Virus record (IMG/VR): IMGVR_UViG_3300022937_000033
Coordinates: 1-50,117 of that record
DNA: 50,117 nt
Direction: 5' to 3' (one strand)
Source of the DNA: a virus
The position numbers and the translations under genes are program-made. Under the pieces are notes generated by a model that was not told the DNA's origin, made no database searches, and was given only the letters and a program-made list of their open reading frames with translations. This document shows positions 12,734 to 34,516 of the stretch, piece after piece (position 1 is the stretch's first letter; each line of letters opens with the position of its first letter).

Positions 12734-12922
12734 ATGGCAAACAGTCCTATTCCTGATCAGGGACAAGATTTTATCGATTCTGGAATGGTTTTAATAACCG
12801 ATCCGCGCTCTGATAAATACTTGAACCGAACGAAACCCAACGATCCTCCCAAGGATCGTCTAACTAGACAATGTGGCGGTGCTGGTGGTTTCGACGATTA
12901 TGTCGAACGCTTTAATTCTTAA
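12734..12922 (+). CDS. hypothetical protein, 62 aa, upstream of gp25
   Basis: Encodes 62 residues, polar and Asp/Pro-rich (SPIPDQGQDFIDSGMVLITD) with a C-terminal GGAGGFDDYVERF. Its stop overlaps the gp25 start (TAATG), so the two are translationally coupled and it is probably a late protein. I recall similar short proteins before gp25 in cyanophages; no function known. Confidence 0.75.
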   Translation: MANSPIPDQGQDFIDSGMVLITDPRSDKYLNRTKPNDPPKDRLTRQCGGAGGFDDYVERFNS

Positions 12923-13329
12923 TGGCATACCGTTTCAAAACAGAACGAAATTTAAGTCGTCAATTTAGAGACCTCAGTATTGGGATGTTGGCAAACCCCA
13001 ATACTGAGGATTTTTCTATGGTAAAAAATGAGAATGCTATCAAGCAATCTATTAGAAATTTGGTATTGACACAATTTGGCGAAAGACCTTTTCAACCAAA
13101 CAGCGGATCTAGACTCAAATCTATGCTTTTTGAGAACTTTGATGTGTTTATGCTGGAAGATCTCAAAAGTGAAATTGTCAGTGTTGTTAGTCGTTTAGAA
13201 CCACGAGTTGAACTTACTGACGTAATTGTTAAATATGAAGGTGGTACTGAAATTGAGGTTGAAGTGGAATATAGAATTATCGGTGAAATCCTTACACAAA
13301 CTGTAGACTTCCTGCTGGAGCGCACGTAA
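12922..13329 (+). CDS. gp25: baseplate wedge protein gp25
   Basis: Encodes 135 residues, close to the T4 gp25 length. It carries the family's core NENAIKQSIRNLVLTQFGER and the EPR triplet at residues 93-95 (RLEPRVEL), which is the signature of gp25-like proteins (GPW_gp25 family). In T4-like particles it links the inner baseplate wedge to gp6 and sheath assembly. gp6 follows two bases after its stop, the T4-like cyanophage arrangement. Confidence 0.96.
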   Translation: MAYRFKTERNLSRQFRDLSIGMLANPNTEDFSMVKNENAIKQSIRNLVLTQFGERPFQPNSGSRLKSMLFENFDVFMLEDLKSEIVSVVSRLEPRVELTDVIVKYEGGTEIEVEVEYRIIGEILTQTVDFLLERT

Positions 13330-15435: not shown

Positions 15436-18400
15436 ATGAAGGCAGTAACCGTATCGCAGAGAATTCAGGATCAAATTCCTGCATTCATTAAAGAAGACAA
15501 CCAGCAGTTTGTAAAATTCTTAGAGGAATATTACAAATCGCAAGAGAAAGTTGGGCGTCCGTATGACATCCTAAACAATATCCTGAATTATACGGATATT
15601 GGTTCGGATGAGTTCGATCCAAATTTCTTGTCTTCGGAATCTGCGGTGTTGGAGAAGGTGGATCCGACACAAAACAAGATTATTGCCGAGAATGTAAAAT
15701 ATTTCCTTGAGAAGGATGGCACTCTCAAGATTGATAATGAAGTCATTTACTATGAGTCGATTACTCACTCACCTGACATAATCTTCACTCCTGGTGTAAA
15801 CAAGCAGGAGTTCGATCGCAAAATTCAAGAATTTGAATCGATTTCTTCTGAGTTTAACGGTTCCAAAACTCTGTTTAATCTGAGACTGCTTGGTAGTCCT
15901 GTTACTCCACAGTCTGCGGAGCACCTTCTTGTCATCGTTAACAACGAATTTCAGTTCCCGAATAGAGATTACTTCCTTGAGGGAGACAAGATTCGCTTCC
16001 AGACCCCTCCACAATCGCCTACAGGCAGTCTGACGGGTGCTGTCAATATCATTAGGTATCTGATTGGTTACACCAACGTTCCAGTCCGTTATTTGGACCC
16101 TATTGTTGTTCCTCAGGATAGTTCTCAGACTGAGTTCAATTTAACTCTGCAAACACAACTGTACACTCCCCTGTCTACAGTGTCTTCGATTGTTATCGTC
16201 AATAGATCTGAAAAGGTCCCATTTGCAGATTACACCGTATTCCAAAACAAGATCATCTTTAAGGAAGCACCTGTTCCTGGGTCCCAAATTGATGTTCTTT
16301 CTGTTGAATTGATTGCTCCCGAATTTGGATCGGGGGCATCGGCAGTTTCTAAAATTGTTGATGGTCAACTTGATGATATTATTGTCAAAAATGGTGGATC
16401 CAACTATAGACTGAGCTTTGCGCCCAAAGTCAACATTTCTTCGACTCTTGGACCTGGTGAAAATGCAACTGCAGAAGCACTTGTTAATGGCATCAAAAAT
16501 GTCACTCTCCTTGCTTCTGGTCAAGGTTATACCTCCGCAAACCCACCTCTGGTCGAAGTAGACGCACCTGCAAATGCTGAGGGGCAAGTGGCAAGACTTA
16601 CGGCTACTGTTTCCGATGAAATTGAGGGAGTCATTTCTCTTAATGTCATTTCATCGGGTTCTGGTTATGATCGTATTCCTTCCATCAAATTCATTAATCC
16701 TGGTGGAGCAAAAATCAGTAACCCAACAATTACTAATGGTCGAGTAGATCTTGGATCTATCCAAGTTATTGATCCTGGTTTTGGATACACAACAGCACCT
16801 AGAGTGTATCTTGATCTTCCGACTGGGGATAATGCCATCGTTGCATCTCTTCAAGCAGTTCTTGATGATACGGGAAGATTGTTAAGAGTTGATGTTTTGG
16901 GTCAAGGGCAGGGTTATGAAACTGTACCTAGAGCACGTATTATCGATCCTGTTGGTGCTCAGATTCTCGATGTTAATGTTACTGGTGGCAGAGTCACCAA
17001 CGTCGAACTTCTGACTGGTGGTAGAGGTTACACGGATGCTCCTTCGGTGTACATCGTTGATAACCGTAAAGATATTGCTGGTAACCCGATTGGTGGTACT
17101 GGTGCAACTGCAGTTGCTACGATCTTTAACGGCGAAATTACAGATATCAACATAACCAGTTTTGGTACTGGTTATTCCGATACCGAACCTCCTCAAATTT
17201 TTATTGCAGCACCACCTTCACCTGCAGCATCTTGCGATGTTGGATTTGGTGAGGTCACTGGTTTCACAATTCACAATGCTGGTCGTGGATACGAACCTTC
17301 TGCGTTTGTGAATTGCAGCCGTGGTGTGTCCGCAGTTACAGAATATGATCAGAAAGGTAATCAGGTTTATAGTTTGGAATCTGACACCGTTCAATCCTCT
17401 CACGCTGTTGGCGCAACAATCTACAACATAGACAATCTGTTCGCTAAAGAACTTTACAGAAGATACGTCAATCAATATCTCCCGAACGCGGATATTGACT
17501 ATACCAAGGTCAATGCTCCGCAGATTATTAAGACTATTAGCGATTTTTACGCTTCAAAGGGCACCAAAATTTCGACTCAGTATCTGTTCAAGATGCTGTA
17601 TTCGGAGAATGTTGATGTTTCTTACCCCAAGGATGAGATTATCAAACCATCTGCCGCAACTTGGAACGTAGATACCGTTCTTCGTGCGGAACTTATTTCT
17701 GGAGATTCGCGCAATCTTCAGGATTCTCAACTGTTTCAGTTTGCAGATGCGGTAGACCCAACTATTAAAGACGCATCGGTTCTTATTGAAAACGTCATCG
17801 CCATCAATACTGGTGTGGGTACCGTGTATGAACTTGCAATTTCTGAGGAAACTTTGCAAGGTACATTCTCAATTCCGTATAAGACAACTCTTGTTGAGGC
17901 ACTTGATACGGATACATCAATCATTACCGTTGACTCTACCATTGGTTGGCCAGAGAGAAACGGTACTATCCGCATTAACGATGAAGAAATTGTTCAGTAC
18001 AAGGAAAAGACTCTCAACCAGTTCATCGAATGTACTCGTTCTAAGAATGGTGTTGTAGAGGATTGGGATGCTGGTACCCCAATATATGCAGATATGTTTG
18101 TCTATGCCAACTATGGCACCAGCACCGAATGTAAACTGCGTGTTCTGGGTATTGCAGACGCTAAGTCTACAGTTCTTTCTGACACAGGTTCTTACTATCT
18201 GCCTGGTGACAAGCTGAATGTTGCATCTCTTGGTTCAACGACTGATGACCAGAGAGTCACATCCTGGTTGTATAACGTTAAGAAACTGATCAGTGTCAGT
18301 CAAATTGTACCTGGAGGTCTCAACAACCAGACAGCAACAGTTACCTGTGTAAACAATCACGGTCTTCTGGTTGGTGACTCCGTTACAATCTACGGTGCTA

Positions 18401-21400
18401 ACCCGACAGTGTTTAATGGTACATTCTTGGTTACCTCTCGTTTGAGCAATACCGTATTTGAATATACCATTCCACAACCCGCAGCGAACGAACCCCAAGG
18501 CAATATCCTGCTGTCCGTTGATTTGAACAAGGGCAAGTCTTCCGAACCAGGTATTGATGTTGCTGTTAGGAATTTTACGACAAACGTACAAAATACCTTC
18601 TTCAACGATCAGTATTCATATATTGCATCGTCGGGTATTCCAAACTATGAAGTGGGTCCTTTCCTTGGATCTGCACTTCTTCCAGGCAACCAGCGTAAAC
18701 TGATCCGTATTCCCAGAGTAATTAATACGGTTTCCAGACGCGAAGATATCCAATTTGGTCCTATTGGATCTTGGGTTAATGGTGTTTCTGCGTGGTCTTA
18801 TAAGTCTCAAAATAAAATTAAGTTTGGTGGTGTGACAAGCATCACCATTGATAATCCTGGAACTGGGTATGACGCTGCAGTTCCTCCAGTTATCGAAATT
18901 ACTGGTGGCGGTGGTTCTGGTGCATCTGCAACGGTTGTTGTTAATGGATCTTTGTTTGAAATTGAAGTAACTGCTGGTGGTACTGGATATACATCTTCAC
19001 CGCTTGTTTCTATTGTTGGCGGTGGTGGTTTTGGTGCAACCGCAACTGCAGTTATAACAAATGGTAGAGTTAGTAGGATTCTTGTCGAATCTCCTGGTCA
19101 AGGATATACATCTCAACCCACAGTTTCGGTTTCTGGTGGTGGCGGCACTGGATGTACTGCTGTTGCTACCGTTAGAGGTCCAATTCAATCCGTTGCTACT
19201 ACTAGCAGTGGTTCTGGTTACACATCTTCACCCACACTCAAACTAAACTCTGGTGAAGGTGCGGTTGCACAACCGATCATCATTAATGGTCGTATTGTTT
19301 CTATTGCTATCATTGCTGCTGGTAGAGGATACACCACTGCACCTCGTGTGATTATCAATGGTGATGGTTATGGTGCTGTCGCTAAAGCAACTATTGGTAC
19401 TGTTGGTGAAGATAGGGGCAAAGTTATTGGTGTTACTATCATTAACCGTGGTATTGGTTATAGCACAGGTACAACAACTGTCCGTCTTGAAGCGATTGGT
19501 CAAAGCGCACAATTCAGTGCAAACGTATTTGAGTGGACTCGTAACCTTCAAGATCAACTGGCATTAAACTTTGATGCTGCTCGTGGTTATGTGTTTGCTG
19601 GTTATAACACACAATATGGTGGTGAATATGCACACGTTTCTGATCCCAAACAACTGAGATATGTTCTTGGCGATAATGTGTTCAGAAATCCTTCTACTGG
19701 TCAACTCCAAGAACTTTCCACTGGTTATGTTCACTCTCCCATTTTGGGTTGGGCATTTGATGGTAACCCGATTTATGGTCCTTATGGTTACATCGATGCT
19801 ACGGACCAGTCTTCTGGTATTCGTCGTATCAGGTCTTCATACAGTGTTAAGTCACGTCTTGTATATGATGCAGATACTAATCCAGTGCCTCTGCGCGAAG
19901 ACGGTCCTCTCCTTTCAGATTACCCTGCTGGATCTTTCATCGATGACTATGAATATGTGTTCCAATTGGGAGACCTAGATCAATATAATGGTCGTTTTTG
20001 TAAGACACCAGAATACCCTGAAGGTGTGTATGCATATTTTGTTTCCATTGATGCATCTGATTTTGGTAATCCAGTTTTCCCATATATTTGTGGTCCTCAA
20101 CTGTATTCTCAACCAGATACTTGGAATTTCTCTCAGGATGCTGTTCAAACCAACATTCCTTCTGACGTGGTTCGCTTCCGCGATCCATATGAAGATGTTG
20201 ATATTGACATTGATCGTCAACCAAACGCAGCCACAGACACGTTGGTCACTGAATTTGGTGAAGACTTGATCTTTGAGATTGAAGATCTCAACAGAGATGG
20301 TCTTATCAACAATCTTGAAGCAACCGAACCTCAGGTTATCACTGAAGAACCCGTTCTGCAAGTATTTGATTACTATCCGAGAGTTTCCGTTCGTTCCGAA
20401 GTTGATATTGATATTGAGACTACGACGAAATTTGAAGATGCTAAGATTGACGGATTTGTGATTGAAAACCCTGGCGTTTCTTACAAAGTCAGTGATAAAC
20501 TGTACTTTGATAATGAAGGTACAGAAGGTTTCGGTGCATCGGCAAAAGTTTCTGCAGTTAAGGGTCTGACCATTGCTGGATATACCAGCTATATGAGCAA
20601 TGACGAACCTTATGGTCAAATCACAACCGATGGTGAGCACGAACTCCGCGTTGGTGATGAAGTTATTGTTAATAGCACACCAATTCTGGACGAAACAAAT
20701 AAAACTTTCCGCGTTAAAGTTATCTCTGGCGTGGAACAGGTTGATGTTGTGCAAGCAGGTCTCGGATATTCCGAGGAAATTCCCCCAACATACGAAATTA
20801 TCACTTCTCAAGGGCAAGATTTTACAATTGAACTCCCAAGAACTGAGGCTGGTGGCGTTAACAAGGTCAACATCATCAATTCTGGTTCTGGATATGATGA
20901 GGATAATCCTCCAGAGATTCGCGTCACACACCCACAAAGATTTAAGAAGGCAGCGTATTTCCTGTCTTTCTTGGAAGAAAATAATTCCGTCACAACTATA
21001 AACGACATTCAAATTGCCGATGACAGAACCATCTATGTTTGTGGTAAGACATCGGTTGAAGATGGAGACACTGCTGGTGTTCTTGCCAAATTCAATAGTG
21101 ATGGTCGTCTCTTGTGGAAGCGTACTCTTATCCCAACAGTTCCTAATGCTCAGGACAAGAGTCTTGTTTGGAATTCTCTGTATGTTGAAAATTCCAATCC
21201 ACATAACATCTATGTCGTTGGTGAAACAATTCCGAACGTTGGTAATTTGACACACAATCCTGATGTGGTTGTTGCCAAGTATCAATCTGGATTTGATAAT
21301 GCAAATAATCCTGATGGCATCATCCAATGGCAGCGCGATATTGCTGGCATTTCTGGTTCGACCAGACGCGATTATGCCACGACAATTCGCCTCGACCAAG

Positions 21401-24400
21401 AAGGTCGTGTGATGATTGGTGGTTACACTGATGCAAACTCCATATCACCCGATGATATGTGGGTGTCTCTCCTCGATCTTGATGGTTCTGTTATGGAGAA
21501 GCGGAAAATTGCTTCTGCTTCTGGTACTGAGCATCTGCATCAATTGGAGTGGAAGAGTAACGACACATTCCTGTTCTGCGGAATTTCTGATCCCAATGGT
21601 ACTGGAGACATTATTATTGGTGAAACTTACTATGATACCGCGACTATTGAGATTCAGTGGTCTAAATCTATCGTAAGCGGACCCGTTTACAGATATTCCA
21701 ATCCATCCTTCACTGTTGATGATTATGGTGCTGTTTATGTTACTGCAACCGTAATCAATTCAGACGACAAGAACTATGGTGTTATGTACACCAAGTTTGA
21801 TGGTAACAATTGGAATACTGCATTGACTAGCAAACTGTATGTTCCCCAAGGAACATATGAAAGTTGCGAATCTGCAGGGATTAAATTTGACATTTTCGGC
21901 AATATTGATCTTGGTGTTTTTGTCAAGCGAGCATTTAACCAGTGCGAATCCGTTACATCCAAAATCTCTTGGAATACTGGAAATATCATAACTTCATCAA
22001 CTCTTGTTGAATCTAGTGGAATTGGATATCATCCAATCGCAATCTCTAGTGATAATTCTGGAGATACCATTGTTGCTGGTAACAAGGTTGAATCGGATCA
22101 ACTTGCAATCTTTAATTGGGATACTGCAAGTAATGTGTTTGAGGAGACATACAACGATACTCTCAAGACTGGAACCAATACTCAATGGTATGCAAGTGGG
22201 AATGCCATTATCGATACAAACAAGTATTATGATGGGGTTTCTTCAATTCAACTGGATGCTCCCAATTCGTTGGCACTCCAATATGGTAGTGATTTGTCAA
22301 ATCAGTGGACTCTTGAAGCATTCTGGGCACTATCCACAGCACAATACTCGGCAAACAATACCGATCCAGAATTCTATTCGGTTTCGGACTCTCTTGGTAA
22401 TACTGTTTCTTGTGGTGTTATCGGTGATAATACTGATCCCAATTATGGAAAGGTTTATGTAAATCTCTCTGGAACAACAACGTATTCGACTGGTTCTACA
22501 TTCTGGTCTCCATTTAATGCAGAAACATTCGCTCACGTATCCTTGTCTAAAGAGCGTGCTGGGGTTGGTTCGTACACATACCGTGTGTTTATCAATGGCA
22601 ACCTTGCACATTCCGTAACCAGCACAACAATTGACGTTCTACTTAAAGATGCATCCCTTGGTCCTCAGGCAGCACCCACCAGCACAACTGGTTGGATTGG
22701 ATGGATTGACAATTTTGTAGTTTCCAATTCCACAAAGTATACAGCAGCATTCACCCCCGCAGTTGTTGTTGGTTCTAGTTCTTCCGTCAAATCCTTCATC
22801 TACAAGGTAGATAAAGATAGAACAAAACTGGGAACATTTACTCTTGATGATGTTGAGTCTGGACACACCATCACAATTTCCTCCAACACAAGTTATACTT
22901 TTAATACCCTCAACCAAACTATTACTGATTGGGCACTTGGTCCTGCAGGTATTCAAATCCTTGATTATTCTGACGTTGCCGCTCAGCACGTTCCTGGTAT
23001 CTTTACATTTACTGATACTAGCGAAACATATGCTGAGAGAACAGCAACTATTCCTACTGTTGGTGGTAAGAAACTTCTGCTTCAGGCAACAGTTATCCCG
23101 AAATTCTACTTTAGGGATGCTAAGTATAGCAGCATTGACCTTGTTAAGACTATTACGTTCAACCAAGAAGCAACCTTCACCAAAGGTTCTATTCTCCAAC
23201 AGTATCAAGTAATTGGTGGCGATGATGTTATTTCTGCATATGGAACGATCGTTGAGGTTGGAACCAATTCCTGTAAGATTGGTAAAATTATCGGCAATTT
23301 TGATACCCAAAAACTGCTGAAATCTTCTGCTGGCGACGTTAACACTCTTGATCGTAATTTCTCTGCTGCAACAACAGTCCCCCAGTGGCAAGAGAATTTC
23401 TCATACACAACAGGTGATGAAGTTTATAATGATGGCAAGATTTATACCGCAACATCTACTGGCATCTCTGGTCCCTTAGATCCTACCCATACCACAGGCA
23501 TCGTCACCGACGGTAATGTAAATTGGGCGTTTACTGCAGTTTCTGGGACATTTGTTATTGATCTTGCTAATACTGCATATAGTGGTGGTACACTGTCGGA
23601 CTTTGCTTCCTGGAGAGCTTTTTCACCTCAGGACTACACAATTAAGATTGAATCGATTTATGACGATTCATCCTTCATTAAGGGTGACACTATTGATGCA
23701 GATGCAGTCAATCTAACATTCTCCGTTGATACCACTGGCAAAATTGCAACTTTCGGTGGACTGATTGGTGTCAAGTCTTTCACCTTGGTCGCGACCCTGG
23801 ATAAAGATGTTATCCCTTCTGCGGCACTGACTAATACCGATCTGGTGTTCTGTTCTTCTACGAGTAGACACAACTTTGAAGAGAATGACATCATCTTTAC
23901 AGAAAGATTTGCAACCAATGATTATAATGGTTCGTTCTTCATTGAGGAGGTCTTCAATTCAAGAGAATTTACCTTCCGTCTGAGAAGCACCGCTGTTCAA
24001 GATCCCACGTTCTCTGGTACTGGTTCTTCTGTTGGTAACATCAACATTTATGCGAAGCATCCCAAATTCCTGTTTGTTCGTTATCACCAGTACATCTTTG
24101 ACTTGGATGATCCTTCCAACTTTGGTTACTATCTGTCGTTCTCCAAGGATAACCAATACAAACTGGAATATCCGTTCATCAACATCATCAGAGAAGGTAC
24201 TCCTGGTCTAACTGACGACGATTCTCCGACTCCTCTGGTCAAGTTTGTTGTGACCGATGCTGTTACAAACATTTCGTACTACTTCGATCCCTCCAGAACT
24301 GGTACAAACTCCCCTGTGGGTGAAGGTTCGTTCATCGACGTTATCACAACTCCATATGCAGGGACTTTCCGAGTCAGTGCTACTGGAAATGTTGGTACAA

Positions 24401-27400
24401 CCTTCGACTTCAAACTTTTCAACGAACCAGAGAAGACAACTGCTCCTGTCGGTAATAATGAGTTTGGCAATCCAAGATCTTATTATTCGACAAGTTCTCT
24501 CAAAGCAATTGGTCCTATTGCAGACATTAAACTGGTTAACCCAGGTGGTTTCTATCAGAAACTCCCCATTGTCACAGATATTGCGTCGAACAGAGAGATT
24601 GAAAAGGTTCGTATTCTGAATGGTGGTACTGAATATGTCAACGGCGTGTACTACAACGTACCCATTCAGGGTGACGGTGAAGGTGCATCCTGTAACATCA
24701 CCGTTCAAGACGATGGCGATTTCACTGGGGTTATTACCGATGTTGTTCTGACATCTGCTGGTGAAGGTTATAAGACTGCATACATCGATGTTGATGGCAT
24801 CTCTGGTATCCTCGGACCTCTGCTCGCAGGTTCTGGTGCACAACTTGAGGTTGTGATTCCTGATGAGGGTTCTGGCGCATCGGTCTTCCTGCAAGGTAAG
24901 AGCATCGGTAAGATCAAGAAACTGAAGAACAATGAATTTGGTTTCGGTTATTCTCACGATTATACTCTGAGACCCGAAATTACTTTCCCTGTGAACCTTC
25001 AACTGTTTAATACCGCTATTCTGTCGGAGATCAAGATCACTGATCCTGGTTCTGGTTACACATCTGTTCCTGCAGTTGTGATCGAAGGTGGTGGTGGTAC
25101 AGGTGCTGAAGCGGAAGCAGTTGTCAAGAACAATCGTCTTTCGGAAATCATCATCAAGAATCCTGGTGCTGGTTACTCTTCGGAACCGACTGTTACCCTG
25201 AAGTCTGAATTTAACTACGTTGTTAACGTTGACTTGGGTTATCTGCAGTTCAACTTCCCACACGGTATCACCACTGGTGCAGAAGTTCAGTTGAGAGCAG
25301 AAGATCTTGGTTCTACGGTTGGTATTCTGCCGAAACCGAGTTCTGCAGGTTTGGTTAGCTTGAACCCGAATCAAATCTACTATGCAATCGCTGGTGAGCA
25401 AAACTCCTTGGAATCTGACCAACTTCGTATTGCACTGACCAAACTTGACGCAGAATCTGGTTCTTTCATCACATTCTTGACCCAAGGTGAAGGTCGCCAA
25501 GTGCTGTTGACCGAAGTGTTTGGTGGTCAAGCAGAAGCTATCGTAGAAACCTCCAGATTCCTTGAAGGTGAACTTGTTTATCAGGGTTCTTCACTGGAAC
25601 TTGCATCTGCAACTGGTTACGTTTCCACTAACGAAGGTTGGCAGATTGGTCCTCGCATTCTTAAGTTGGAAAATTATGATGGCATTTGGAAAGATGGTGA
25701 GCGTGTCACTGGTCAGGTGTCTCGTGCATCTGGTTTGATTGATAACCTCTCCATTGCTCGCGGTACTCTGAATATTGCTTCTCTGACCACAACTCCTGGT
25801 CAGTTTATCGATGACGTTGGCAAACCCTCCGAAATCGTTCAGAAGATCCAAGATTCCTACTTCTATCAGAACTTCTCTTACGTTATCAAGTCTCAGACTC
25901 CGATTAACGAATGGAGAAAGTCCATCCTGGAAACAAACCACCCTGTTGGTTTCAATATGTTCGGTGAACTTGCTATTTCTGGTGGTAAGGATATTTCTGG
26001 TCGTAAAGTTATTTCTGACCTGGTTAAGGAAGTTAATATTAGTTCCTATACCAACATTAATCAAATTACATCGTTTGCAAACGCACAACCAATCTACACA
26101 GAGTTCAACAACACTGAAGTTCTGTTCAGACGTAAGCGTCTGACCAACTCTGAGGAAATTCTCACATCTATCGTCAAGAAAATCGATGATATTTCATCAG
26201 ACTTTAATGGTATTAGAACTCAGTTCCCCCTGAACGTTGAAGGTGAATCCATCACCGCAACCGAAACTCAGATGTTCGTGCTGATCAACGGTGTTGCACA
26301 GGCACCTGGTGATGCATTCTCAACTTCTGGTCCTTCGATTGTCTTCACTGAAGCACCGAAAGCACCTTCCAGAATCAAATTCCGTGAAGTTGATTATGCT
26401 CAGATTGAAATTACCCGCCTGACATTTAGCAACATTAGTGGTATCTTCCCACTTCTGGGATATAAAGTTCGCGGTATTGTTTCCGAAGCAATTGCAACTG
26501 TCATCGACTCTGGCGTTGACTACATTGATGTGATTAACGTTGAAGGAACATTCCAAATCAACGAAAGCATTCTTAGCAGTCAAACTGGATTCAACTCGGT
26601 TCTTTCCAACGTCGCTACTGTATCCCAGAAGACAATTTACGAACAGGGTGAGAGAATCACCAACTTGAGTGGCGATTTTGCAATCATTGAAGAAAGTAAC
26701 CTGCAAGATGGTACAATCACATCTCACTTGGTTGTTTCTCGTACATCTGGTACCGATAAGTATGAAACTGGCGAATTCAATATCAAGTTCAACGATATTA
26801 TTTACTCTTCCCGTTCAAAGATTGCTGCAAGAGTGACTGTTATCGCACCTTACAGTGATGATGTTTCTGGTCAAATTATCGACCAGGTTGACCTGTCTCC
26901 TGCATCTTCCTTCTTTGCACTGGTCTTCCAGAGAGTTCCTTCAACGACATTCCCGAACGTCATTCTTGACAATATTGGTGATACCGTTATCAATCCCACA
27001 GAGATCGATAGCACAGAATCTAATAACCAAGACTTCCTTGATTTTGAGCGTGTTCGTAACCAAGAAATTCGCTACACCAATCTCGCAGGCAATGACTTTG
27101 CTCCTGGCACCGATATTCGCCTGAAGAAGATCTATTTCGGTAACTCTTCGTTGAGAACCGTCAAAGATCCTCGTGCAAATAACGCTTCCGAGTCAATCCT
27201 GAAGAACCTTGACTTTATTGCTGAGGAAGCAGTGGGTAAGATGCTTGAATTCTATCCTTCCTTCCAGATTCAAAGCGTCGGTGGAAATAGTGACTGTCAG
27301 GACGATATTAAGGATATCCTAACGGCTATCGCGTGGCAATTGGAATATGATGGCAACTCTGAAATTTGGGATGCTGCGAATACCTACGTTCAAGGCAACA

Positions 27401-30400
27401 GTGTGTACCACCTGGATGGTGCTGTTCCCCAAACAGTTTATGCAATGGAACAGGCACGTGATCTTGCGATAAAGTGTATCAATATGATCACTATCAATCC
27501 TGAGCACACCAGATTGAGTCAGTGGAAGGATCTGACGGTTACTCCCGAGTACACAGTGATCGACAACAGTCACGCTGACGCTCGCAATCTGATCCTTGCT
27601 AATAAGTGGTTCATTGCACACGAATCTCTCTACTACGCTAAGCAGCAAAATCCTGGTCTGGTTGTGCCTGGTGGCGATGTGAACTGCCTCTCCGACATCG
27701 TAGATGTCTTGGAAGCAATGACATATAACCTGGCACACGGTGGCAACGACTTTATGTACGACGCTACTGAGCGTTATCTTACGGGTGCACACGTTGCTGG
27801 TTATGAAGATGATACCGTGAATGCCTTCACCAAGGCACGCGATATGGCAATCGAAGTGATGAGAAACAATGCTATCACCAAGCAAGATACTTCTCACGGT
27901 TGGGTTCAGTCTTTCGACCTCACCATCACAGCAGATACTCAATCTCCCGCCTGTCAGCAGGTCGCATCGTCGATTACAACTCTAATGGGTATGCTGATCA
28001 CTTCGATCGGCACTACAGCATCTCCTGGAACACTTGCCGCATTTGAGGCAGCGTATACTGAAACTGCACCTTCTCCGACATACAACACAAATCGTGAGGC
28101 AATTCCTTACGAAAATGCGTGTGTCAACCAGACTTCTGCAGTTACCAATTTCTTCCATATCATCACGGATTCGCTTCAGGATCCCACTGGTGCTGATCCG
28201 ACTACCTATCAGTGGTCCATCAGCAACTTGACTCGTGTTGAACCCCCGTATGCGTTTGAAGACGGCGAAACGATCCGTTCTATCAAACACAACTACAAGA
28301 ACAAGTCTTCAGGTGGTTTCTTCAACTTTGGTGATACTATTCGCGGTATGTCATCTGGAGCAACATCTGAAGTTATCGGAACCAATGCTGGTAACAAGTG
28401 GATCTACACCAAGGCAGTTACTGGAGCATACTCTGCAAACGAGTATATCACCAACTCTCTAATGACCGCAACTAATGCTTCAGTTGATTTATTGATGTCC
28501 AAAGTTGGATCTGGATCTGTTTCCTTCACAGGAACTGGTAGCAAACTTGAATTCCCCGCAGACGAGAGAGTTGATTTCGGTACTGCAGACTTTACCATCG
28601 AAGCTTGGATTCGTCCCTCGGGCGTAAGCGGTGTCCAAAGAATCATTGATTGTCGTGCATCTGGCACTGACGTTGCAGTTACTCTCTTTATGAGTGGAAC
28701 TTCTCTCCGTTACGGTACAGGTGCTGGTGATCACATTACTGCTACCAGTGCTATCACAACTGCAAACCAGTGGTACCACATCGCAGTTTCTCGCGCTTCC
28801 AACACCACAAAACTGTTTGTTAATGGCGTTCAGGTTGGTTCTGACTACACAGACAACAATGATTATGCAGATAATGCATTTAAGGTTGGTGCTTCTTGGA
28901 ACAGTGGTGAAACATTCGCTGGTCATATTGACGAATTCTTGATCAGAAAAGGAACCGCCTCGTACGGTTCTGGGTTTACTCCCCCCATTGTCTATAACTA
29001 CAGCGGATTGGATATTTCCTTCGCGTTCAATGGCAATACTCCTTTCCCGATCGAGCATACTGCAATCTACGCAACGTATCTGCAAACTATCATCTCGTCT
29101 GCAACGGCAAACGGTGTCGAATTGTTCCGTCAAGAAATTATGACGGAAGAGGTTGATACTGGTAGAGACGTATATCGCGACTGTGCCGATATTATTGAGA
29201 AGAACCGTTACTGGATTGCTGAGGAAGCAGTTGGTCGTATGAAGGCGACTTACCCAGAGTTTGTGATGCCTGGTGACTATGGAAACAGCACACAAGGTAC
29301 AGATTACTGCCTGCGTGATACTCACTCATTCATTCTGCCCGCAATCATTAATGATCTTCGTTACGGTGGTAACTACAACACAATCGTTGCTGGTCGTGGA
29401 TACCTTGAGGGTTCGGGTGCACTGAAGCATATCAATGGTGAACTCCTGCAGTCCATCTACAGTTGGCGGGAAGTTGCAAAACTTTGCATCAAAGTCATCA
29501 CCGAAGATGAAACTGATCTGAGTGGTGAGTATACCGACAGAATTCGTGTTCCCAACTACTTCAGTTCTCCTGCATCTACACAAATCCAGAACTTCATTAC
29601 CGATCTGGTTGACGATATGTTGGATGTTCTGGGTCCGACTGGACACAGATTCCGTGATGGTGCTGATCTACTGTACTTCAACCGTAAAGCGATTGCTGAC
29701 GAAGCAGTCTATATGCTGGAAGAAAAGTGGAAGGTCAATATCGCATTCTACGAACAGAATAAACTCTCCATCCCTGGTGGTCGTGAGAAGTGTGTTCGCG
29801 ACGTTCGTGACTATATTGTTCCCGCTGTTGCTGGTGATCTCTTGACTGGGGGTAACTCCAATATTCAGGGGATTATTGATTTCTATCTTGATGCTCAAAG
29901 CAATATCAATCACGTTGAGAGTGAACTGCTCCCGATGCTGGATGCAATTGAATATGTGAAGATGCTTTGTGGTTATGCGATTGAGAACCTGTTGATTTCT
30001 CGTAGCGAGAATATCGCAAACTTGACTGGTACAAGTCCTCAAACTATTGACGACTTCTACCAATTCCAATACACCGACTTCGCTGCATTCCGTAAGGATA
30101 CTGCAGTTGAACCCACGTTCCTGGGAGATCCTAAGATCTATCAAGGTGACAACTATGCAATCGATGCTTCCAACCTTCTGGAGCAGAATGCACGTACAAT
30201 TGCTGAAGAAGCAATTGATCTGGTTACCAAGACCAGTGCATTCCAACATTCCAACTTCAGAGTTCCTGGCGGTAAAGTCAACTGTGAAGATGACATCGTT
30301 GGATTCATCGAAGCAGTTATTCACGACTTGCGTTTTGCAGTTAACGAGAAATCTTACGATGCAGCAATGCTCTATCTGAACACAGATATGGGTCTGCAGC

Positions 30401-33400
30401 ACGTGACAAATCAAGCAGAAGAAACTGTCTATGCTTATAAGTTGGCACGTGATATGTCGATTCTCGCGATTCGCAATAAGCTTGGGTTTAATCCCTTGGA
30501 GGATGATCCTACTCTGCCTCCTCGTGGTGATTATGATTACAATGCAAACGGTAACGGTTTCTATGATGCAGCAAATGAAATCAGAAATAATCTGAGATTC
30601 ATTGCTACCACTGCTGTCGGACGTGGCATAACAAACTATCCTTCTCTCGTCATCCCTGGTGGTTATCAGAACTGTGTTGACGACACTGTTGACATCCTTG
30701 AGAGATTGATTTTCAACCTCGCTCACGGTGGCAACAATATGATGTACTACGCGACCGAGTTCTATATCACTAACGCGAATGCAATCTCGCACGTAACCTC
30801 TCAGGCAACAGAAACCAAGTACATTTTCGAGCAGGCACGCGACATCGCAATTCAAGTGATGCGTGGTCAATCTGTTACAACCAACGGCACAACCGAAGGT
30901 ACTCAACTGATTGATACCACGATCACTGCCGATACCGCTAACCCAACTTGCCAAAACGAAGCTGCTGCTATCAACACCCTAATGGGTATTGTGATTAATC
31001 TGTTCACAAATACTGGCGATCCTCAGGGTTATCTGAATGGTATTTCTAAGACTCTGCCTGGCGAATGGCCGCTGACTGGTGAGCGTGCAATCCGTCGCGA
31101 TCTGACTATCACGTATGACCAGTCTGGTATGGGTCTGTGTGCTGTGGTTTCTTCCACAATCGATACCCTGTTTGGTTATGTTATCAATGTTGTGGATACT
31201 GCTGCTCAAGGTAGTGGCAACTATCTGTCCAACCAGGGCATTACCAAGACAGTTGCTTCTACTTCCAATACCCTGACTTCTGGCGCTGGTCTCTGTTATA
31301 ACGTCAAATCTGCTGCAAATGTTCTTTTCGATCTTCTCGAAGACACTCTCGGACGTGCACCTGAGATGTATCGTCAAGCAGCACGTTTGGTTCTGATCAA
31401 CGATAACTACATCAATCGCGAATCTTACTACAAGACCCTCAACACATACTCTGGTTATGGTGGAGATGAAACATTTGGCGATTCTATCCGTAAAGCATAC
31501 GCATATGATCTCCTGACGGATGGTAACGCTAAGACTCTCGCACTGGTGAACTCTTGGTTTGATGCTGAAGGCAACTTCATTGCATTCCCTGGAACATTCA
31601 GAACCTATCTGATCTTCCACGCGAATGCAGTCAAAGATTTAACCAAGCAAATTGTTCTGCAAACAGCAGCAAATCCTGGTGCATATAACTTAGAACCTGT
31701 TTACACAAATCTCGAACTTCGTGTAAATCAGTCTGCAGCGGATAAGATTGATCAGTTGGATCACCTGGTCCAAACTGCTCTCGTCAGGTCTAAGCCCCCA
31801 ACAACACTTCTCAAGTACAACTTTGATGCTGGTGTTGCTGTTAACGCGAATGGTTCCATCACTGTTGTTGGCACCCATCCATTTGAGGCGTACGACATTG
31901 TTAACTACTCTGTCCTTGGAACTTCTATCGCCGAACTTAATCGTGCACAGTATTACATTCACCCCGATACAACTGCATCTACCATCTGGTTGGCAGAATA
32001 TATCGATGGTGAAAAGATCAGATCTCTGACTCCTGGAACTGCAGGTCAAATTCATACCCTGGCAGTTAATAGGAACACTGGTATCACTAGAATTCCTACT
32101 ACATATGGTGATCGCGACATTCCTACGCCAATATCTGGTGGTATTCAGGCAGCGGATGTGTTCTATGGAACAAACACTGGTGCATACGCAGAAGTCATTC
32201 GCATTCAGGACAACCTCGCGAGCGTGCTTTACAATATCAAGCACCTCACAATCACCCACACAACTCCCGAACAGAAGTTCTTCAATAATGAAACGGTCGT
32301 TGTGAATGGTGCCACAGCAAATACGGGCACAATCCTTTCTACTGATGGTGAGACCTACGTCAAGGTCATTGTGAATGGTGGTGCCTTCTCCAATGGCGAC
32401 ACCATCGAAGGTATTGATAGTGGTGCTCAAGGCAATGTGACTTTGGATCCCGACAATCGTCTTCTGGTCAATTTCCGTCGTGGCGAATTCATTGCAACCG
32501 ATGTCTTCTTCTCTAAGCAAGACACTGGTTCTGCAAACGCTCTGATCGTTCGCAATAATGATGGTGCTTTGACGGATAACCAAAATGGTCGCGTCACTTT
32601 CGATATTGAGACCGTTACTGGTGAATTCAAACCATCTGACGTGATCTACGGTTCTGTTACCGATCAGATCATTGAGATTGAGAGTTTCAATGTCACTCCT
32701 GGATTTGGTGAGTATATTCACTCCACCGAAATCACAAGATTCACATATGGTGCTCTTATCACAGATACAGGCGTTACCGATACATTCCAAGTTGGTGATG
32801 TTCTGCAACTCCAGAATGCAGGTCAGACAGTGGGTCACACCTTCGTCGTTACCGAACACGACATTGATAATAACTACGTCTATCTCGCGAATGAGACTAG
32901 TCGTTTCTCCTTGATCGGTTCAGACCTCACCGTGATCGCTGGCGATCCTGCTTACACTCTCGCGAAGATTCCTGTAGGATCAAACTTCCCCAGTGTCTAC
33001 ACTGACGTTATCACGCAAGTTACCATCACGCCTACAACTGCATATGGCAAGATTGCTAAGATTGAGCAAATCGGTCTTCGTGCAATTCTACACCTAGAAG
33101 ATTGTAGTGGAACATTCTTGAAGAACTCTCAGATCATTGGTGACAATGGATTCCGTGGTGCTTGCTCACAAGCAAGAGAACTTCGCGGGCGCGTGAGAAG
33201 ATTCTTCAGAGGTTTCGACGGTGTTCAAACCAACTTCAAACTGACCACTGGTAATGGTGATCCTTACTTCCCAGATCCCGCTGGTCATATGATGATCTTT
33301 GTGAATGGTATTCTGCAACCTCCTGGTGGTAGCAACGCCTACACAGCGTTCTCCGACAACATCCAGTTCACCGAAGCACCTGCCGTTGGTTCTACTTTCC

Positions 33401-34500
33401 ACGGCGTCTACGTGGGTAAACTGAGACAGTTGGATGACATCTCCTTCGACTTCGACTCGCTGAGAAACTCCTTCAACCTGAAACTGGGTGGCGTGTTCTA
33501 CTCGCTGACACTGACTGATGGTGTTCAGTCCAACACGATCAAACCTGAGAACAACATCATTTGCCAGTTGAACGGTGTTATTCAGGAACCTGGAATCGGT
33601 TTCGAGATCGTTGGTTCTAGAATCATCTTCTCTGAGATTCCTCGCGCAGGTTCGACCTTCGTTGCCTTCTCATACATCGGTTCTGACGTTGACGTTATCG
33701 CGGCAACGGTTGTTCCCCCGATTGAAGCGGGTGATATTCTCCAGATCGAAGGTGAAGATGAGTCTAGAACTGTCGCTCTGATCGAATCTTCCAACTCCTT
33801 GATCACGTTTGAATACTCGGGCGCAGTTCGCGGTCGTAATGGTCAGGCATTGGCAGAAATTGAGAAGGGTCGTGTGATTGAAGCAATCCTCACCAATTCT
33901 GGTGATGGTTATAGCGACAGACCTCAAGTCGATGTGGTTTCCTCCTCTGGTTTTGGTGCTCGCATCAAGGCACTTGTTGGTCTCGCACGCATCGACGTGA
34001 AGAATGCTGGTCAAGGTTATACATTGCCCAGAGTCGCAGTTAATACAACTGTTCCCGACACATTCCTTGGTCCCACAGGTGCTGCGTTGAACGGTGGTAT
34101 TGACATCTATGATCCCAACTACGTTCCCCCTGGCGATGAAACTCCTCAGGGTGAGAGAGCAATCGTGATTGAATCCCAACCCGTTAACACCACAGTCAAC
34201 CAGGGTGAGACCGCATCCTTTACGGTCATTGCTTCCACAAACCCCACTGGTGGGTCTATCGCCTACCAGTGGCAGAAGAAGGACTATGGATCTACAGAAT
34301 GGATCAACATTGATGGCGCTACATCACCCACTTACGTTACTCCTGCAACCACTCAGGCAGATGGCGGTGATGAGTATCGCGTTGGTATCACATCGCCTGG
34401 CGCAACACCTGTCCTGTCCAACTCTGCAGTCCTCGGTATTAACATTGGTGCTACGGTGATCTCTGGATTTACCGCTGACCAGATCTTTGACGACAACTAA
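15436..34500 (+). CDS. giant multidomain virion (baseplate/tail) protein, 6354 aa
   Basis: A single uninterrupted frame of 6354 codons. The N-terminus (QIPAFIKEDNQQFVKFLEEY) is typical of long cyanophage baseplate proteins. Approximate order by residue: two or more FNG...F-x-L binding-type repeats at 130-290; GxGY beta-repeats at 310-640; a GWP/KTLxxF module at 816-887; GxGY repeats at 1130-1360; a YHYH-like domain at 1425-1540; more GxGY repeats at 1665-1835; a propeller-like region at 1837-2230; a LamG-like domain at 2236-2445; a CBM5/12-like segment near 2650-2700; GxGY repeats at 3030-3255; six Cys-containing helical repeats at 3925-5148, interrupted by a second LamG-like domain at 4355-4518; more FNG-type repeats at 5925-6060; GxGY repeats at 6148-6208; and an Ig-like domain at 6244-6342. 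The position between gp6 and gp8 is that of T4 gene 7 (wedge initiator), but no sequence likeness to T4 gp7 is visible. Confidence 0.93.
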   Translation: MKAVTVSQRIQDQIPAFIKEDNQQFVKFLEEYYKSQEKVGRPYDILNNILNYTDIGSDEFDPNFLSSESAVLEKVDPTQNKIIAENVKYFLEKDGTLKIDNEVIYYESITHSPDIIFTPGVNKQEFDRKIQEFESISSEFNGSKTLFNLRLLGSPVTPQSAEHLLVIVNNEFQFPNRDYFLEGDKIRFQTPPQSPTGSLTGAVNIIRYLIGYTNVPVRYLDPIVVPQDSSQTEFNLTLQTQLYTPLSTVSSIVIVNRSEKVPFADYTVFQNKIIFKEAPVPGSQIDVLSVELIAPEFGSGASAVSKIVDGQLDDIIVKNGGSNYRLSFAPKVNISSTLGPGENATAEALVNGIKNVTLLASGQGYTSANPPLVEVDAPANAEGQVARLTATVSDEIEGVISLNVISSGSGYDRIPSIKFINPGGAKISNPTITNGRVDLGSIQVIDPGFGYTTAPRVYLDLPTGDNAIVASLQAVLDDTGRLLRVDVLGQGQGYETVPRARIIDPVGAQILDVNVTGGRVTNVELLTGGRGYTDAPSVYIVDNRKDIAGNPIGGTGATAVATIFNGEITDINITSFGTGYSDTEPPQIFIAAPPSPAASCDVGFGEVTGFTIHNAGRGYEPSAFVNCSRGVSAVTEYDQKGNQVYSLESDTVQSSHAVGATIYNIDNLFAKELYRRYVNQYLPNADIDYTKVNAPQIIKTISDFYASKGTKISTQYLFKMLYSENVDVSYPKDEIIKPSAATWNVDTVLRAELISGDSRNLQDSQLFQFADAVDPTIKDASVLIENVIAINTGVGTVYELAISEETLQGTFSIPYKTTLVEALDTDTSIITVDSTIGWPERNGTIRINDEEIVQYKEKTLNQFIECTRSKNGVVEDWDAGTPIYADMFVYANYGTSTECKLRVLGIADAKSTVLSDTGSYYLPGDKLNVASLGSTTDDQRVTSWLYNVKKLISVSQIVPGGLNNQTATVTCVNNHGLLVGDSVTIYGANPTVFNGTFLVTSRLSNTVFEYTIPQPAANEPQGNILLSVDLNKGKSSEPGIDVAVRNFTTNVQNTFFNDQYSYIASSGIPNYEVGPFLGSALLPGNQRKLIRIPRVINTVSRREDIQFGPIGSWVNGVSAWSYKSQNKIKFGGVTSITIDNPGTGYDAAVPPVIEITGGGGSGASATVVVNGSLFEIEVTAGGTGYTSSPLVSIVGGGGFGATATAVITNGRVSRILVESPGQGYTSQPTVSVSGGGGTGCTAVATVRGPIQSVATTSSGSGYTSSPTLKLNSGEGAVAQPIIINGRIVSIAIIAAGRGYTTAPRVIINGDGYGAVAKATIGTVGEDRGKVIGVTIINRGIGYSTGTTTVRLEAIGQSAQFSANVFEWTRNLQDQLALNFDAARGYVFAGYNTQYGGEYAHVSDPKQLRYVLGDNVFRNPSTGQLQELSTGYVHSPILGWAFDGNPIYGPYGYIDATDQSSGIRRIRSSYSVKSRLVYDADTNPVPLREDGPLLSDYPAGSFIDDYEYVFQLGDLDQYNGRFCKTPEYPEGVYAYFVSIDASDFGNPVFPYICGPQLYSQPDTWNFSQDAVQTNIPSDVVRFRDPYEDVDIDIDRQPNAATDTLVTEFGEDLIFEIEDLNRDGLINNLEATEPQVITEEPVLQVFDYYPRVSVRSEVDIDIETTTKFEDAKIDGFVIENPGVSYKVSDKLYFDNEGTEGFGASAKVSAVKGLTIAGYTSYMSNDEPYGQITTDGEHELRVGDEVIVNSTPILDETNKTFRVKVISGVEQVDVVQAGLGYSEEIPPTYEIITSQGQDFTIELPRTEAGGVNKVNIINSGSGYDEDNPPEIRVTHPQRFKKAAYFLSFLEENNSVTTINDIQIADDRTIYVCGKTSVEDGDTAGVLAKFNSDGRLLWKRTLIPTVPNAQDKSLVWNSLYVENSNPHNIYVVGETIPNVGNLTHNPDVVVAKYQSGFDNANNPDGIIQWQRDIAGISGSTRRDYATTIRLDQEGRVMIGGYTDANSISPDDMWVSLLDLDGSVMEKRKIASASGTEHLHQLEWKSNDTFLFCGISDPNGTGDIIIGETYYDTATIEIQWSKSIVSGPVYRYSNPSFTVDDYGAVYVTATVINSDDKNYGVMYTKFDGNNWNTALTSKLYVPQGTYESCESAGIKFDIFGNIDLGVFVKRAFNQCESVTSKISWNTGNIITSSTLVESSGIGYHPIAISSDNSGDTIVAGNKVESDQLAIFNWDTASNVFEETYNDTLKTGTNTQWYASGNAIIDTNKYYDGVSSIQLDAPNSLALQYGSDLSNQWTLEAFWALSTAQYSANNTDPEFYSVSDSLGNTVSCGVIGDNTDPNYGKVYVNLSGTTTYSTGSTFWSPFNAETFAHVSLSKERAGVGSYTYRVFINGNLAHSVTSTTIDVLLKDASLGPQAAPTSTTGWIGWIDNFVVSNSTKYTAAFTPAVVVGSSSSVKSFIYKVDKDRTKLGTFTLDDVESGHTITISSNTSYTFNTLNQTITDWALGPAGIQILDYSDVAAQHVPGIFTFTDTSETYAERTATIPTVGGKKLLLQATVIPKFYFRDAKYSSIDLVKTITFNQEATFTKGSILQQYQVIGGDDVISAYGTIVEVGTNSCKIGKIIGNFDTQKLLKSSAGDVNTLDRNFSAATTVPQWQENFSYTTGDEVYNDGKIYTATSTGISGPLDPTHTTGIVTDGNVNWAFTAVSGTFVIDLANTAYSGGTLSDFASWRAFSPQDYTIKIESIYDDSSFIKGDTIDADAVNLTFSVDTTGKIATFGGLIGVKSFTLVATLDKDVIPSAALTNTDLVFCSSTSRHNFEENDIIFTERFATNDYNGSFFIEEVFNSREFTFRLRSTAVQDPTFSGTGSSVGNINIYAKHPKFLFVRYHQYIFDLDDPSNFGYYLSFSKDNQYKLEYPFINIIREGTPGLTDDDSPTPLVKFVVTDAVTNISYYFDPSRTGTNSPVGEGSFIDVITTPYAGTFRVSATGNVGTTFDFKLFNEPEKTTAPVGNNEFGNPRSYYSTSSLKAIGPIADIKLVNPGGFYQKLPIVTDIASNREIEKVRILNGGTEYVNGVYYNVPIQGDGEGASCNITVQDDGDFTGVITDVVLTSAGEGYKTAYIDVDGISGILGPLLAGSGAQLEVVIPDEGSGASVFLQGKSIGKIKKLKNNEFGFGYSHDYTLRPEITFPVNLQLFNTAILSEIKITDPGSGYTSVPAVVIEGGGGTGAEAEAVVKNNRLSEIIIKNPGAGYSSEPTVTLKSEFNYVVNVDLGYLQFNFPHGITTGAEVQLRAEDLGSTVGILPKPSSAGLVSLNPNQIYYAIAGEQNSLESDQLRIALTKLDAESGSFITFLTQGEGRQVLLTEVFGGQAEAIVETSRFLEGELVYQGSSLELASATGYVSTNEGWQIGPRILKLENYDGIWKDGERVTGQVSRASGLIDNLSIARGTLNIASLTTTPGQFIDDVGKPSEIVQKIQDSYFYQNFSYVIKSQTPINEWRKSILETNHPVGFNMFGELAISGGKDISGRKVISDLVKEVNISSYTNINQITSFANAQPIYTEFNNTEVLFRRKRLTNSEEILTSIVKKIDDISSDFNGIRTQFPLNVEGESITATETQMFVLINGVAQAPGDAFSTSGPSIVFTEAPKAPSRIKFREVDYAQIEITRLTFSNISGIFPLLGYKVRGIVSEAIATVIDSGVDYIDVINVEGTFQINESILSSQTGFNSVLSNVATVSQKTIYEQGERITNLSGDFAIIEESNLQDGTITSHLVVSRTSGTDKYETGEFNIKFNDIIYSSRSKIAARVTVIAPYSDDVSGQIIDQVDLSPASSFFALVFQRVPSTTFPNVILDNIGDTVINPTEIDSTESNNQDFLDFERVRNQEIRYTNLAGNDFAPGTDIRLKKIYFGNSSLRTVKDPRANNASESILKNLDFIAEEAVGKMLEFYPSFQIQSVGGNSDCQDDIKDILTAIAWQLEYDGNSEIWDAANTYVQGNSVYHLDGAVPQTVYAMEQARDLAIKCINMITINPEHTRLSQWKDLTVTPEYTVIDNSHADARNLILANKWFIAHESLYYAKQQNPGLVVPGGDVNCLSDIVDVLEAMTYNLAHGGNDFMYDATERYLTGAHVAGYEDDTVNAFTKARDMAIEVMRNNAITKQDTSHGWVQSFDLTITADTQSPACQQVASSITTLMGMLITSIGTTASPGTLAAFEAAYTETAPSPTYNTNREAIPYENACVNQTSAVTNFFHIITDSLQDPTGADPTTYQWSISNLTRVEPPYAFEDGETIRSIKHNYKNKSSGGFFNFGDTIRGMSSGATSEVIGTNAGNKWIYTKAVTGAYSANEYITNSLMTATNASVDLLMSKVGSGSVSFTGTGSKLEFPADERVDFGTADFTIEAWIRPSGVSGVQRIIDCRASGTDVAVTLFMSGTSLRYGTGAGDHITATSAITTANQWYHIAVSRASNTTKLFVNGVQVGSDYTDNNDYADNAFKVGASWNSGETFAGHIDEFLIRKGTASYGSGFTPPIVYNYSGLDISFAFNGNTPFPIEHTAIYATYLQTIISSATANGVELFRQEIMTEEVDTGRDVYRDCADIIEKNRYWIAEEAVGRMKATYPEFVMPGDYGNSTQGTDYCLRDTHSFILPAIINDLRYGGNYNTIVAGRGYLEGSGALKHINGELLQSIYSWREVAKLCIKVITEDETDLSGEYTDRIRVPNYFSSPASTQIQNFITDLVDDMLDVLGPTGHRFRDGADLLYFNRKAIADEAVYMLEEKWKVNIAFYEQNKLSIPGGREKCVRDVRDYIVPAVAGDLLTGGNSNIQGIIDFYLDAQSNINHVESELLPMLDAIEYVKMLCGYAIENLLISRSENIANLTGTSPQTIDDFYQFQYTDFAAFRKDTAVEPTFLGDPKIYQGDNYAIDASNLLEQNARTIAEEAIDLVTKTSAFQHSNFRVPGGKVNCEDDIVGFIEAVIHDLRFAVNEKSYDAAMLYLNTDMGLQHVTNQAEETVYAYKLARDMSILAIRNKLGFNPLEDDPTLPPRGDYDYNANGNGFYDAANEIRNNLRFIATTAVGRGITNYPSLVIPGGYQNCVDDTVDILERLIFNLAHGGNNMMYYATEFYITNANAISHVTSQATETKYIFEQARDIAIQVMRGQSVTTNGTTEGTQLIDTTITADTANPTCQNEAAAINTLMGIVINLFTNTGDPQGYLNGISKTLPGEWPLTGERAIRRDLTITYDQSGMGLCAVVSSTIDTLFGYVINVVDTAAQGSGNYLSNQGITKTVASTSNTLTSGAGLCYNVKSAANVLFDLLEDTLGRAPEMYRQAARLVLINDNYINRESYYKTLNTYSGYGGDETFGDSIRKAYAYDLLTDGNAKTLALVNSWFDAEGNFIAFPGTFRTYLIFHANAVKDLTKQIVLQTAANPGAYNLEPVYTNLELRVNQSAADKIDQLDHLVQTALVRSKPPTTLLKYNFDAGVAVNANGSITVVGTHPFEAYDIVNYSVLGTSIAELNRAQYYIHPDTTASTIWLAEYIDGEKIRSLTPGTAGQIHTLAVNRNTGITRIPTTYGDRDIPTPISGGIQAADVFYGTNTGAYAEVIRIQDNLASVLYNIKHLTITHTTPEQKFFNNETVVVNGATANTGTILSTDGETYVKVIVNGGAFSNGDTIEGIDSGAQGNVTLDPDNRLLVNFRRGEFIATDVFFSKQDTGSANALIVRNNDGALTDNQNGRVTFDIETVTGEFKPSDVIYGSVTDQIIEIESFNVTPGFGEYIHSTEITRFTYGALITDTGVTDTFQVGDVLQLQNAGQTVGHTFVVTEHDIDNNYVYLANETSRFSLIGSDLTVIAGDPAYTLAKIPVGSNFPSVYTDVITQVTITPTTAYGKIAKIEQIGLRAILHLEDCSGTFLKNSQIIGDNGFRGACSQARELRGRVRRFFRGFDGVQTNFKLTTGNGDPYFPDPAGHMMIFVNGILQPPGGSNAYTAFSDNIQFTEAPAVGSTFHGVYVGKLRQLDDISFDFDSLRNSFNLKLGGVFYSLTLTDGVQSNTIKPENNIICQLNGVIQEPGIGFEIVGSRIIFSEIPRAGSTFVAFSYIGSDVDVIAATVVPPIEAGDILQIEGEDESRTVALIESSNSLITFEYSGAVRGRNGQALAEIEKGRVIEAILTNSGDGYSDRPQVDVVSSSGFGARIKALVGLARIDVKNAGQGYTLPRVAVNTTVPDTFLGPTGAALNGGIDIYDPNYVPPGDETPQGERAIVIESQPVNTTVNQGETASFTVIASTNPTGGSIAYQWQKKDYGSTEWINIDGATSPTYVTPATTQADGGDEYRVGITSPGATPVLSNSAVLGINIGATVISGFTADQIFDDN
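27208..31352 (+). repeat. six Cys-containing helical repeats within the giant protein
   Basis: Units of roughly 95-105 residues encoded at about 27208-27500, 27598-27876, 29199-29500, 29680-29990, 30180-30485 and 30588-30880. Each has a start like IAEEAVGRM, a P-G-G segment, a conserved Cys before a D-D/D-x motif (NCLSDIVDVLEA, NCVDDTVDILER), then a helical part with N-L-A-H-G-G-N or a variant and an end like ARDMAI. Four shorter related units (about 27919, 30912, 31100 and 31272) contain T-I-T-A-D and a Cys before TLMG. The repeats are diverged at DNA level. Confidence 0.8.
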
Positions 34501-34503
34501 ATA
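34497..34503 (+). promoter_or_regulatory. T4-type late promoter CTAAATA
   Basis: CTAAATA overlaps the stop codon of the giant gene and lies 14 bases ahead of the next start. Confidence 0.6.
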
Positions 34504-34516
34504 GTTAAAAAAGGAA

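Follow-up and report, generated by a model that had tools for sequence, protein, structure and literature searches.

What kind of protein is encoded by a single reading frame of 6,354 codons lying among the baseplate genes of a virus, and which of its parts is unusual? The window analyzed here, an IMG/VR virus record of 50,117 bases, contains an uninterrupted plus-strand frame (15436-34500) that runs from ATG to stop, encodes 6,354 residues without an internal stop codon, and occupies 19,065 bases (38%), which confirms the original prediction of its length and extent. The same prediction saw no stop or obvious frameshift in the gene, and this is borne out by two further contigs and by a relative. 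IMGVR_UViG_3300023180_007262 matches the window over 8,913 bases at 100% identity, and IMGVR_UViG_3300023084_003129 over 13,745 bases at 99.98%, both without gaps and both keeping the giant frame open; together they span positions 23140-36885, covering the C-terminal part of the ORF, and, as they possibly come from related samples, they support the assembly short of proof. The giant protein is also colinear with S-SZBM1_208 over residues 4-3811 (53% identity) and 4273-6351 (43%). Given the gap-free contigs and this colinearity, a frameshift or assembly join is unlikely, and an artefact of this kind was rejected as the origin of the gene. Four long minus-strand ORFs of 389-474 codons lie opposite it (19975-21399, 24208-25530, 29668-30954, and 31690-32859) and probably reflect its codon usage.

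The genes of the cluster are ordered gp25, gp6, giant ORF, a YHYH gene, a gp9/gp10-like gene, a wedge-related gene, gp8, and a 2,403-residue ORF (Table 1). The gp6 protein is most similar to those of S-SZBM1, P-RSM6, P-TIM40, and S-WAM1 (52-59% identity), indicating that the window comes from a T4-like cyanophage of the Kyanoviridae. The giant ORF directly follows gp6, as gp7 does in T4. A profile of the N-terminal part built from seven cyanophages aligned with T4 gp7 over one stretch of ~75 residues (hhalign probability 71%, E 3.7e-5), centered on DFY-S/T-KG and FK-x-L, and a search of PDB sequences with the same profile returned T4 gp7 as its sole match (E 0.017). PF21427 and PF21456, narrow models of gp7 domains V and VI, match T4 gp7, and no match to them was reported for the window protein. 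Orthology to T4 gp7 is thus supported by position after gp6 and by one shared motif, weakly as far as sequence goes, and the proposal that the protein is a wedge component gains from both the order gp25-gp6-giant ORF and the conserved stretch. There are also differences from T4: T4 gp7 has 1,032 residues and lacks a fibre-like arm, and T4 gp8 is directly next to it. The gene had been placed between gp6 and gp8; this is correct as an order, but gp8 is not adjacent, since the YHYH-bearing gene that follows the giant ORF is not gp8 and three genes intervene.

Other genes of the window were noted in passing. The YHYH domain (PF14240) scores 108 bits both in the gene following the giant ORF and inside gp7 itself, so modules are common to neighboring baseplate genes. 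The 2,403-residue ORF at 41448-48659, which has a DUF4815 match, probably corresponds to S-SZBM1_203, a ‘wedge tail fiber connector’ of 2,446 residues. Upstream of gp25, a 1,142-residue protein with a baseplate wedge match (8339-11767, phrog_22792) is followed by a PAAR protein (11752-12297). NUMOD4 and HNH matches at 4995-5333 and 7295-8113 mark probable homing endonuclease genes, and 2OG-Fe(II) oxygenases are found at 4348-4992 and 6634-7185.

The size of the protein was considered as a possible novelty and rejected, because similar or larger proteins are already known from PHROG 701 and several phages. PHROG 701 covers the protein throughout, with profile positions 1-2840 matching in one stretch in the first half and ten stretches from position 2844 in the second. 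The relatives span 6,619 to about 8,570 residues; the equivalent gene measures ~19.9-25.7 kb in the group formed by S-SZBM1, P-RSM6, P-TIM40, and S-WAM1, and 16-21 kb in several others. S-SZBM1_208, named ‘baseplate wedge initiator’, shares with the window protein its position after gp6, its colinear sequence, its modules, and its giant size, and has seven phycobiliprotein-like matches of its own, resembling the array described below; the two differ in domain number and in the segment around residues 3811-4273. Giant virion structural proteins of this same PHROG 701 kind are present in P-RSM6, P-TIM40, S-WAM1, and S-SSM4. S-SZBM1_208 (6,619 residues, 724 kDa) has been detected in virions by mass spectrometry with 71 peptides at 13.5% coverage (PMC9146016). 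S-SZBM1, S-WAM1, P-RSM6, and P-TIM40, all of which carry the giant gene, are reported to lack long tail fibres (PMC9146016).

The composition of the protein becomes clearer by comparison with phages in which its parts are distributed over two genes. The matches of S-PM2 gp7 (3,048 residues) fall within residues 6-3694, apart from one short repeat match near 6023-6069, while the separate S-PM2 tail fibre gene p091 (3,338 residues) matches only residues 3910-5225. In P-HM2, the array lies in the YapH protein and is absent from gp7 (2,423 residues). Like the window protein, S-PM2 p091 and P-HM2 YapH carry phycobiliprotein-like arrays with Cys, but as genes separate from gp7. The PHROGs matched by the middle of the giant protein bear the names tail fibre and short tail fibre. 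Because the matching pieces correspond to two S-PM2 genes, gp7 and the tail fibre, a wedge-plus-fibre anatomy is supported. The N-terminal ~3,700 residues have the anatomy of a wedge component and, by analogy with T4, would assemble into the baseplate beside gp6, while the remainder of the ORF would form a long adhesin-like arm, fused to the wedge part and presumably reaching the cell surface. The suggestion that the wedge component doubles as a very long fibre or adhesin is therefore in agreement with the S-PM2 split, the tail-fibre PHROGs, and the lack of long tail fibres reported for the relatives (PMC9146016); the earlier interpretation is partly borne out by this anatomy, and giant size as such is not new. 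In S-SCSM1, the array protein (5302-9738 of locus L019) is annotated as baseplate wedge subunit and long tail fibre, and its gene adjoins neck genes instead of gp6.

The split also bears on whether the 6,354-residue chain exists in the virion at all, as the product might be processed into several proteins, with wedge and fibre apart. The two parts being separate genes in S-PM2 and P-HM2 would suit such processing, as would the peptide coverage of just 13.5% for the S-SZBM1 homologue (PMC9146016). Against this, there is no positive sign of cleavage, and the S-SZBM1 protein is a single 724 kDa entry, although shotgun proteomics cannot tell a chain from its fragments. We consider processing unlikely; it would in any case be compatible with the explanation of the domains favored below.

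The original prediction listed at least eight module types and many repeats. Both statements hold: chunked phmmer searches separated three repeat families, and about eight module types is a reasonable count, comprising the gp7 wedge part, GxGY beta repeats, a second beta repeat family, YHYH, LamG, a phycobiliprotein-like array, an Ig-like C-terminus, and a weak beta-propeller. The phycobiliprotein-like array had been missed.

Table 1. Features of the giant gp7 gene and its baseplate neighbors in the 50,117-base window.
Feature	Position	Strand	Remarks
gp25 homologue	12922..13329	+	context
gp6 homologue	13332..15416	+	context; directly 5' of giant ORF
Giant gp7 ORF, 6354 aa	15436..34500	+	PHROG 701 end to end; S-SZBM1_208 colinear
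Wedge (gp7-like) region, residues 1-3694	15436..26517	+	piecewise match to S-PM2 gp7
GxGY beta-repeat block 1	16303..17325	+	
Other GxGY blocks	about 18808-19470, 20683-20940, 24493-25215, 33808-34044	+	
Conserved T4 gp7 motif DFYASKGTKISTQYLFKMLYSENVDVSYP (about residues 703-731)	17542..17628	+	hhalign, PDB profile search
YHYH domain (PF14240), residues 1339-1540	19450..20055	+	E 4.9e-31
Phycobiliprotein-like domain 1, Cys3954 (CQDD)	27166..27483	+	
Phycobiliprotein-like domain 2, Cys4084 (CLSD)	27562..27867	+	
LamG/concanavalin-like domain (PF13385), residues 4366-4503	28531..28944	+	E 1.6e-20
Phycobiliprotein-like domain 3, Cys4625 (CLRD)	29164..29505	+	structure-predicted copy
Phycobiliprotein-like domain 4, Cys4786 (CVRD)	29641..29988	+	
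Phycobiliprotein-like domain 5, Cys4950 (CEDD)	30148..30477	+	
Phycobiliprotein-like domain 6, Cys5080 (CVDD)	30550..30867	+	
Seventh, degenerate copy without Cys	31360..31659	+	
Second beta repeat family, residues 5926-6075	33211..33660	+	other copies 15820-16023, 26170-26370
C-terminal Ig-like region (weak), residues 6241-6334	34156..34437	+	phrog_613, phrog_4069
YHYH-bearing gene	34517-36295		next gene after giant ORF
gp9/gp10-like gene	36322-37995		
Wedge-related gene	37999-39873		
gp8 homologue	39908..41443	+	PF09215, 59 bits; three genes between it and giant ORF

Iterated profiles revealed an array of six ~105-residue domains at residues 3911-5144, plus a seventh copy without Cys. At residues around 4600, the match to the Pfam Phycobilisome family (PF00502) exceeds the curated cut-off: the window array scores 43.6 bits (gathering cut-off 22.2; E 4e-11), single copies score lower, and the cut-off is passed by arrays of seven different phages, with an E-value of 1.6e-15 for S-CREM1. 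The alignment of all six repeats proved too diverse for a collection scan, and subsets were used. When a 61-copy profile built from the window and IMG/VR loci was searched against 177,635 PDB sequences, phycobiliproteins accounted for all of the 60 matches listed (best E 1.3e-5). Alignment with 25 cyanobacterial phycoerythrin alpha and beta chains by hhalign (96%, E 3.3e-9) placed the phage Cys on phycoerythrin Cys82 and the Asp on Asp85; sequence similarity to phycobiliproteins is strong solely over the first ~60 positions. For copy 3, AlphaFold gave a model (pLDDT 89, pTM 0.83) with a predicted globin-like helical core, and among the 50 PDB matches listed by Foldseek and VIA there were only phycobiliproteins or proteins derived from them, with superposition at 2.5 Å over 114 of 125 residues (Z 12.9). 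A two-domain tandem model was of poor quality (pLDDT 51).

The resemblance could in principle reflect convergence of small helical bundles, since the Foldseek E-values for copy 3 are just 0.05-0.26, weak when taken alone, and a Z near 13 can arise by chance between such bundles. Homology is firm because of the sequence evidence and not because of Foldseek E or Z: the PDB profile matches are exclusively phycobiliproteins among the 60 listed, seven arrays pass the PF00502 gathering cut-off, and the motif register agrees (conserved Asn, C82, D85, G100). Convergence, already made unlikely by these results, is hardly credible to us. By sequence and predicted fold, then, the six arm domains are homologous to the helical core of phycobiliproteins. 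With phycoerythrin, phycocyanin, and allophycocyanin (PF00502) they share this core and the register of the bilin-site Cys and Asp; they differ in having no X-Y helices, in not keeping several pocket residues, in the loss of sequence similarity over the second half, and in being tandem modules within a virion protein. Since the copy 3 model aligns from chain residue ~27 to 150, leaving the N-terminal X-Y helices absent, we name the domain phycobiliprotein-like and not a complete phycobiliprotein. Two shortened scaffolds of similar length, smURFP (7uqa) and an ApcF-derived biliprotein (6hrk), are both among the Foldseek matches; they were engineered from allophycocyanin, unlike the phage domain, whose bilin binding is putative. 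Both bind bilins despite their shortening, which shows that the X-Y helices can be dispensed with.

The domain is confined to one group of phages. A tblastn search matched at least 345 of 50,697 phage records, all of Synechococcus phages, Prochlorococcus phages, or cyanophages, and a second query matched 322 records, all named as cyanophages except one named just ‘Marine’. Copies were present in all 16 GenBank phages examined, five of them selected on gp6 and the other eleven on the domain, and the proteins carrying the array were always large tail, fibre, or baseplate proteins. No description of a phycobiliprotein domain in phages was found in the open-access literature searched, and the annotations of PHROG 701 and S-SZBM1_208 type that we examined do not mention the array. 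Phycobiliprotein domains in virion proteins thus appear to be undescribed, the Pfam match itself being publicly visible. The giant gp7 is of an already known kind; the array is its unusual part.

Do these domains carry pigment? The common bilin-attachment site of phycobiliproteins is Cys-84, which is residue 82 in the phycoerythrin numbering followed here, and the aspartate of the CxxD motif contacts the chromophore. The 6,354 residues of the giant protein contain exactly six CxxD motifs, all on the bilin-attachment site, and only 35 cysteines (0.55%). Among distinct phage copies with a residue at the site, Cys is found in 370 of 376 (98%), Asp at +3 in 366 (97%), and Arg at +2 in 49%; in the 61-copy alignment, at ~33% identity, the site Cys is invariant. 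Arg91 and Tyr95, invariant in the phycoerythrin alignment, are not conserved in the phage copies.

These observations can be read in two main ways. The domains may have a purely structural role. In that case, a globin-like fold of the host would supply the arm with rigid spacers or with oligomer contacts and carry no pigment, the Cys and Asp being kept for folding. The arrays are tandem and variable in copy number, as spacers would be; copies 1 and 2 of the window fall where colinearity with S-SZBM1 is lost; and other pocket residues are not conserved, one copy even lacking the Cys. However, folding alone hardly explains 98% Cys and 97% Asp at ~33% overall identity, Cys is otherwise rare in the giant protein, and the domains are restricted to phages of bilin-making hosts. 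We regard the pigment-free scaffold as a reading of real but lesser probability. The one that we favor, with slightly better than even confidence, is a gp7 wedge with a fused arm whose six phycobiliprotein-like domains probably carry bilin. The domains may have been taken from the host or may share ancestry with its proteins, and would act as rigid units in the arm; a phycobilin would probably be joined to the Cys during virion production in the host, which makes the pigment, either with the help of a lyase from host or phage or spontaneously. The pocket residues that are not kept and the missing X-Y helices speak against bilin binding; the odds that the phage array cysteines bind bilin are roughly even.

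The bilin-attachment cysteine is served by CpeS-type lyases, while T-type lyases serve a different one. A search of 23 phage records for a CpeS-type lyase (PF09367) gave no match, so the lyase would have to come from the host; as the host cell makes both bilins and lyases, a phage lyase would be unnecessary. CpeT-family genes are present in 18 of 22 array-bearing records and a bilin reductase in 10; with just one array-less record for comparison, and with T-type lyases serving another cysteine, this co-occurrence is uninformative. In S-CAM4 (1941-2465 of locus L014), S-RIM44 (166-705 of locus L015), and S-H9-1 (32008-32511 of its record), the array-bearing fibre gene has a CpeT-family gene resembling bilin lyases a short distance upstream.

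A third reading places the function inside the cell, where the array would interact with components of the host phycobilisome or with bilin lyases, serving as their decoy or sink. The fold is that of the host substrates, and host phycoerythrin rises on S-PM2 infection (PMC10452541), but the carriers are low-copy virion proteins and a homologue is present in purified virions (PMC9146016), which makes this role outside the virion's own architecture very improbable.

Could such an arm respond to light? In darkness, P-HM2 failed to adsorb, and P-SSP7 was able to infect (PMC7112961). Several cyanomyoviruses are reported to depend on light for adsorption (PMC2984593), and even within the T4-like cyanophages responses to darkness vary (PMC7853090). 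The array is present in P-HM2 and S-PM2 and absent from P-SSP7, a comparison of three phages that is confounded with phage family. Light-dependent adsorption of S-PM2 is said to have been described by Jia et al. in 2010; the array-bearing P-TIM40 reportedly needs no light to adsorb, which would weigh against light gating. A link between the array and light-dependent adsorption is possible but speculative. That cyanophage tails are pigmented, with the chromophore state or light energy in the domains gating attachment, seems improbable; if true, it would explain why some cyanophages adsorb in light alone.

Cyanophages are known to carry genes for photosynthesis and bilin synthesis; what the phage gains from them is unclear, above all in phages of Prochlorococcus, a host without standard phycobilisomes (PMC2984593). 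If hundreds of T4-like cyanophages bear in their tails a phycobiliprotein fold whose attachment site is intact, phage bilin genes would have a possible virion client. Such a fold would also provide a concrete molecular candidate for light-dependent adsorption, which has been reported since at least 2005 and for which we found no explanation. Even if no pigment is bound, the array shows that phages have reused host light-harvesting folds as building blocks of their adhesins.
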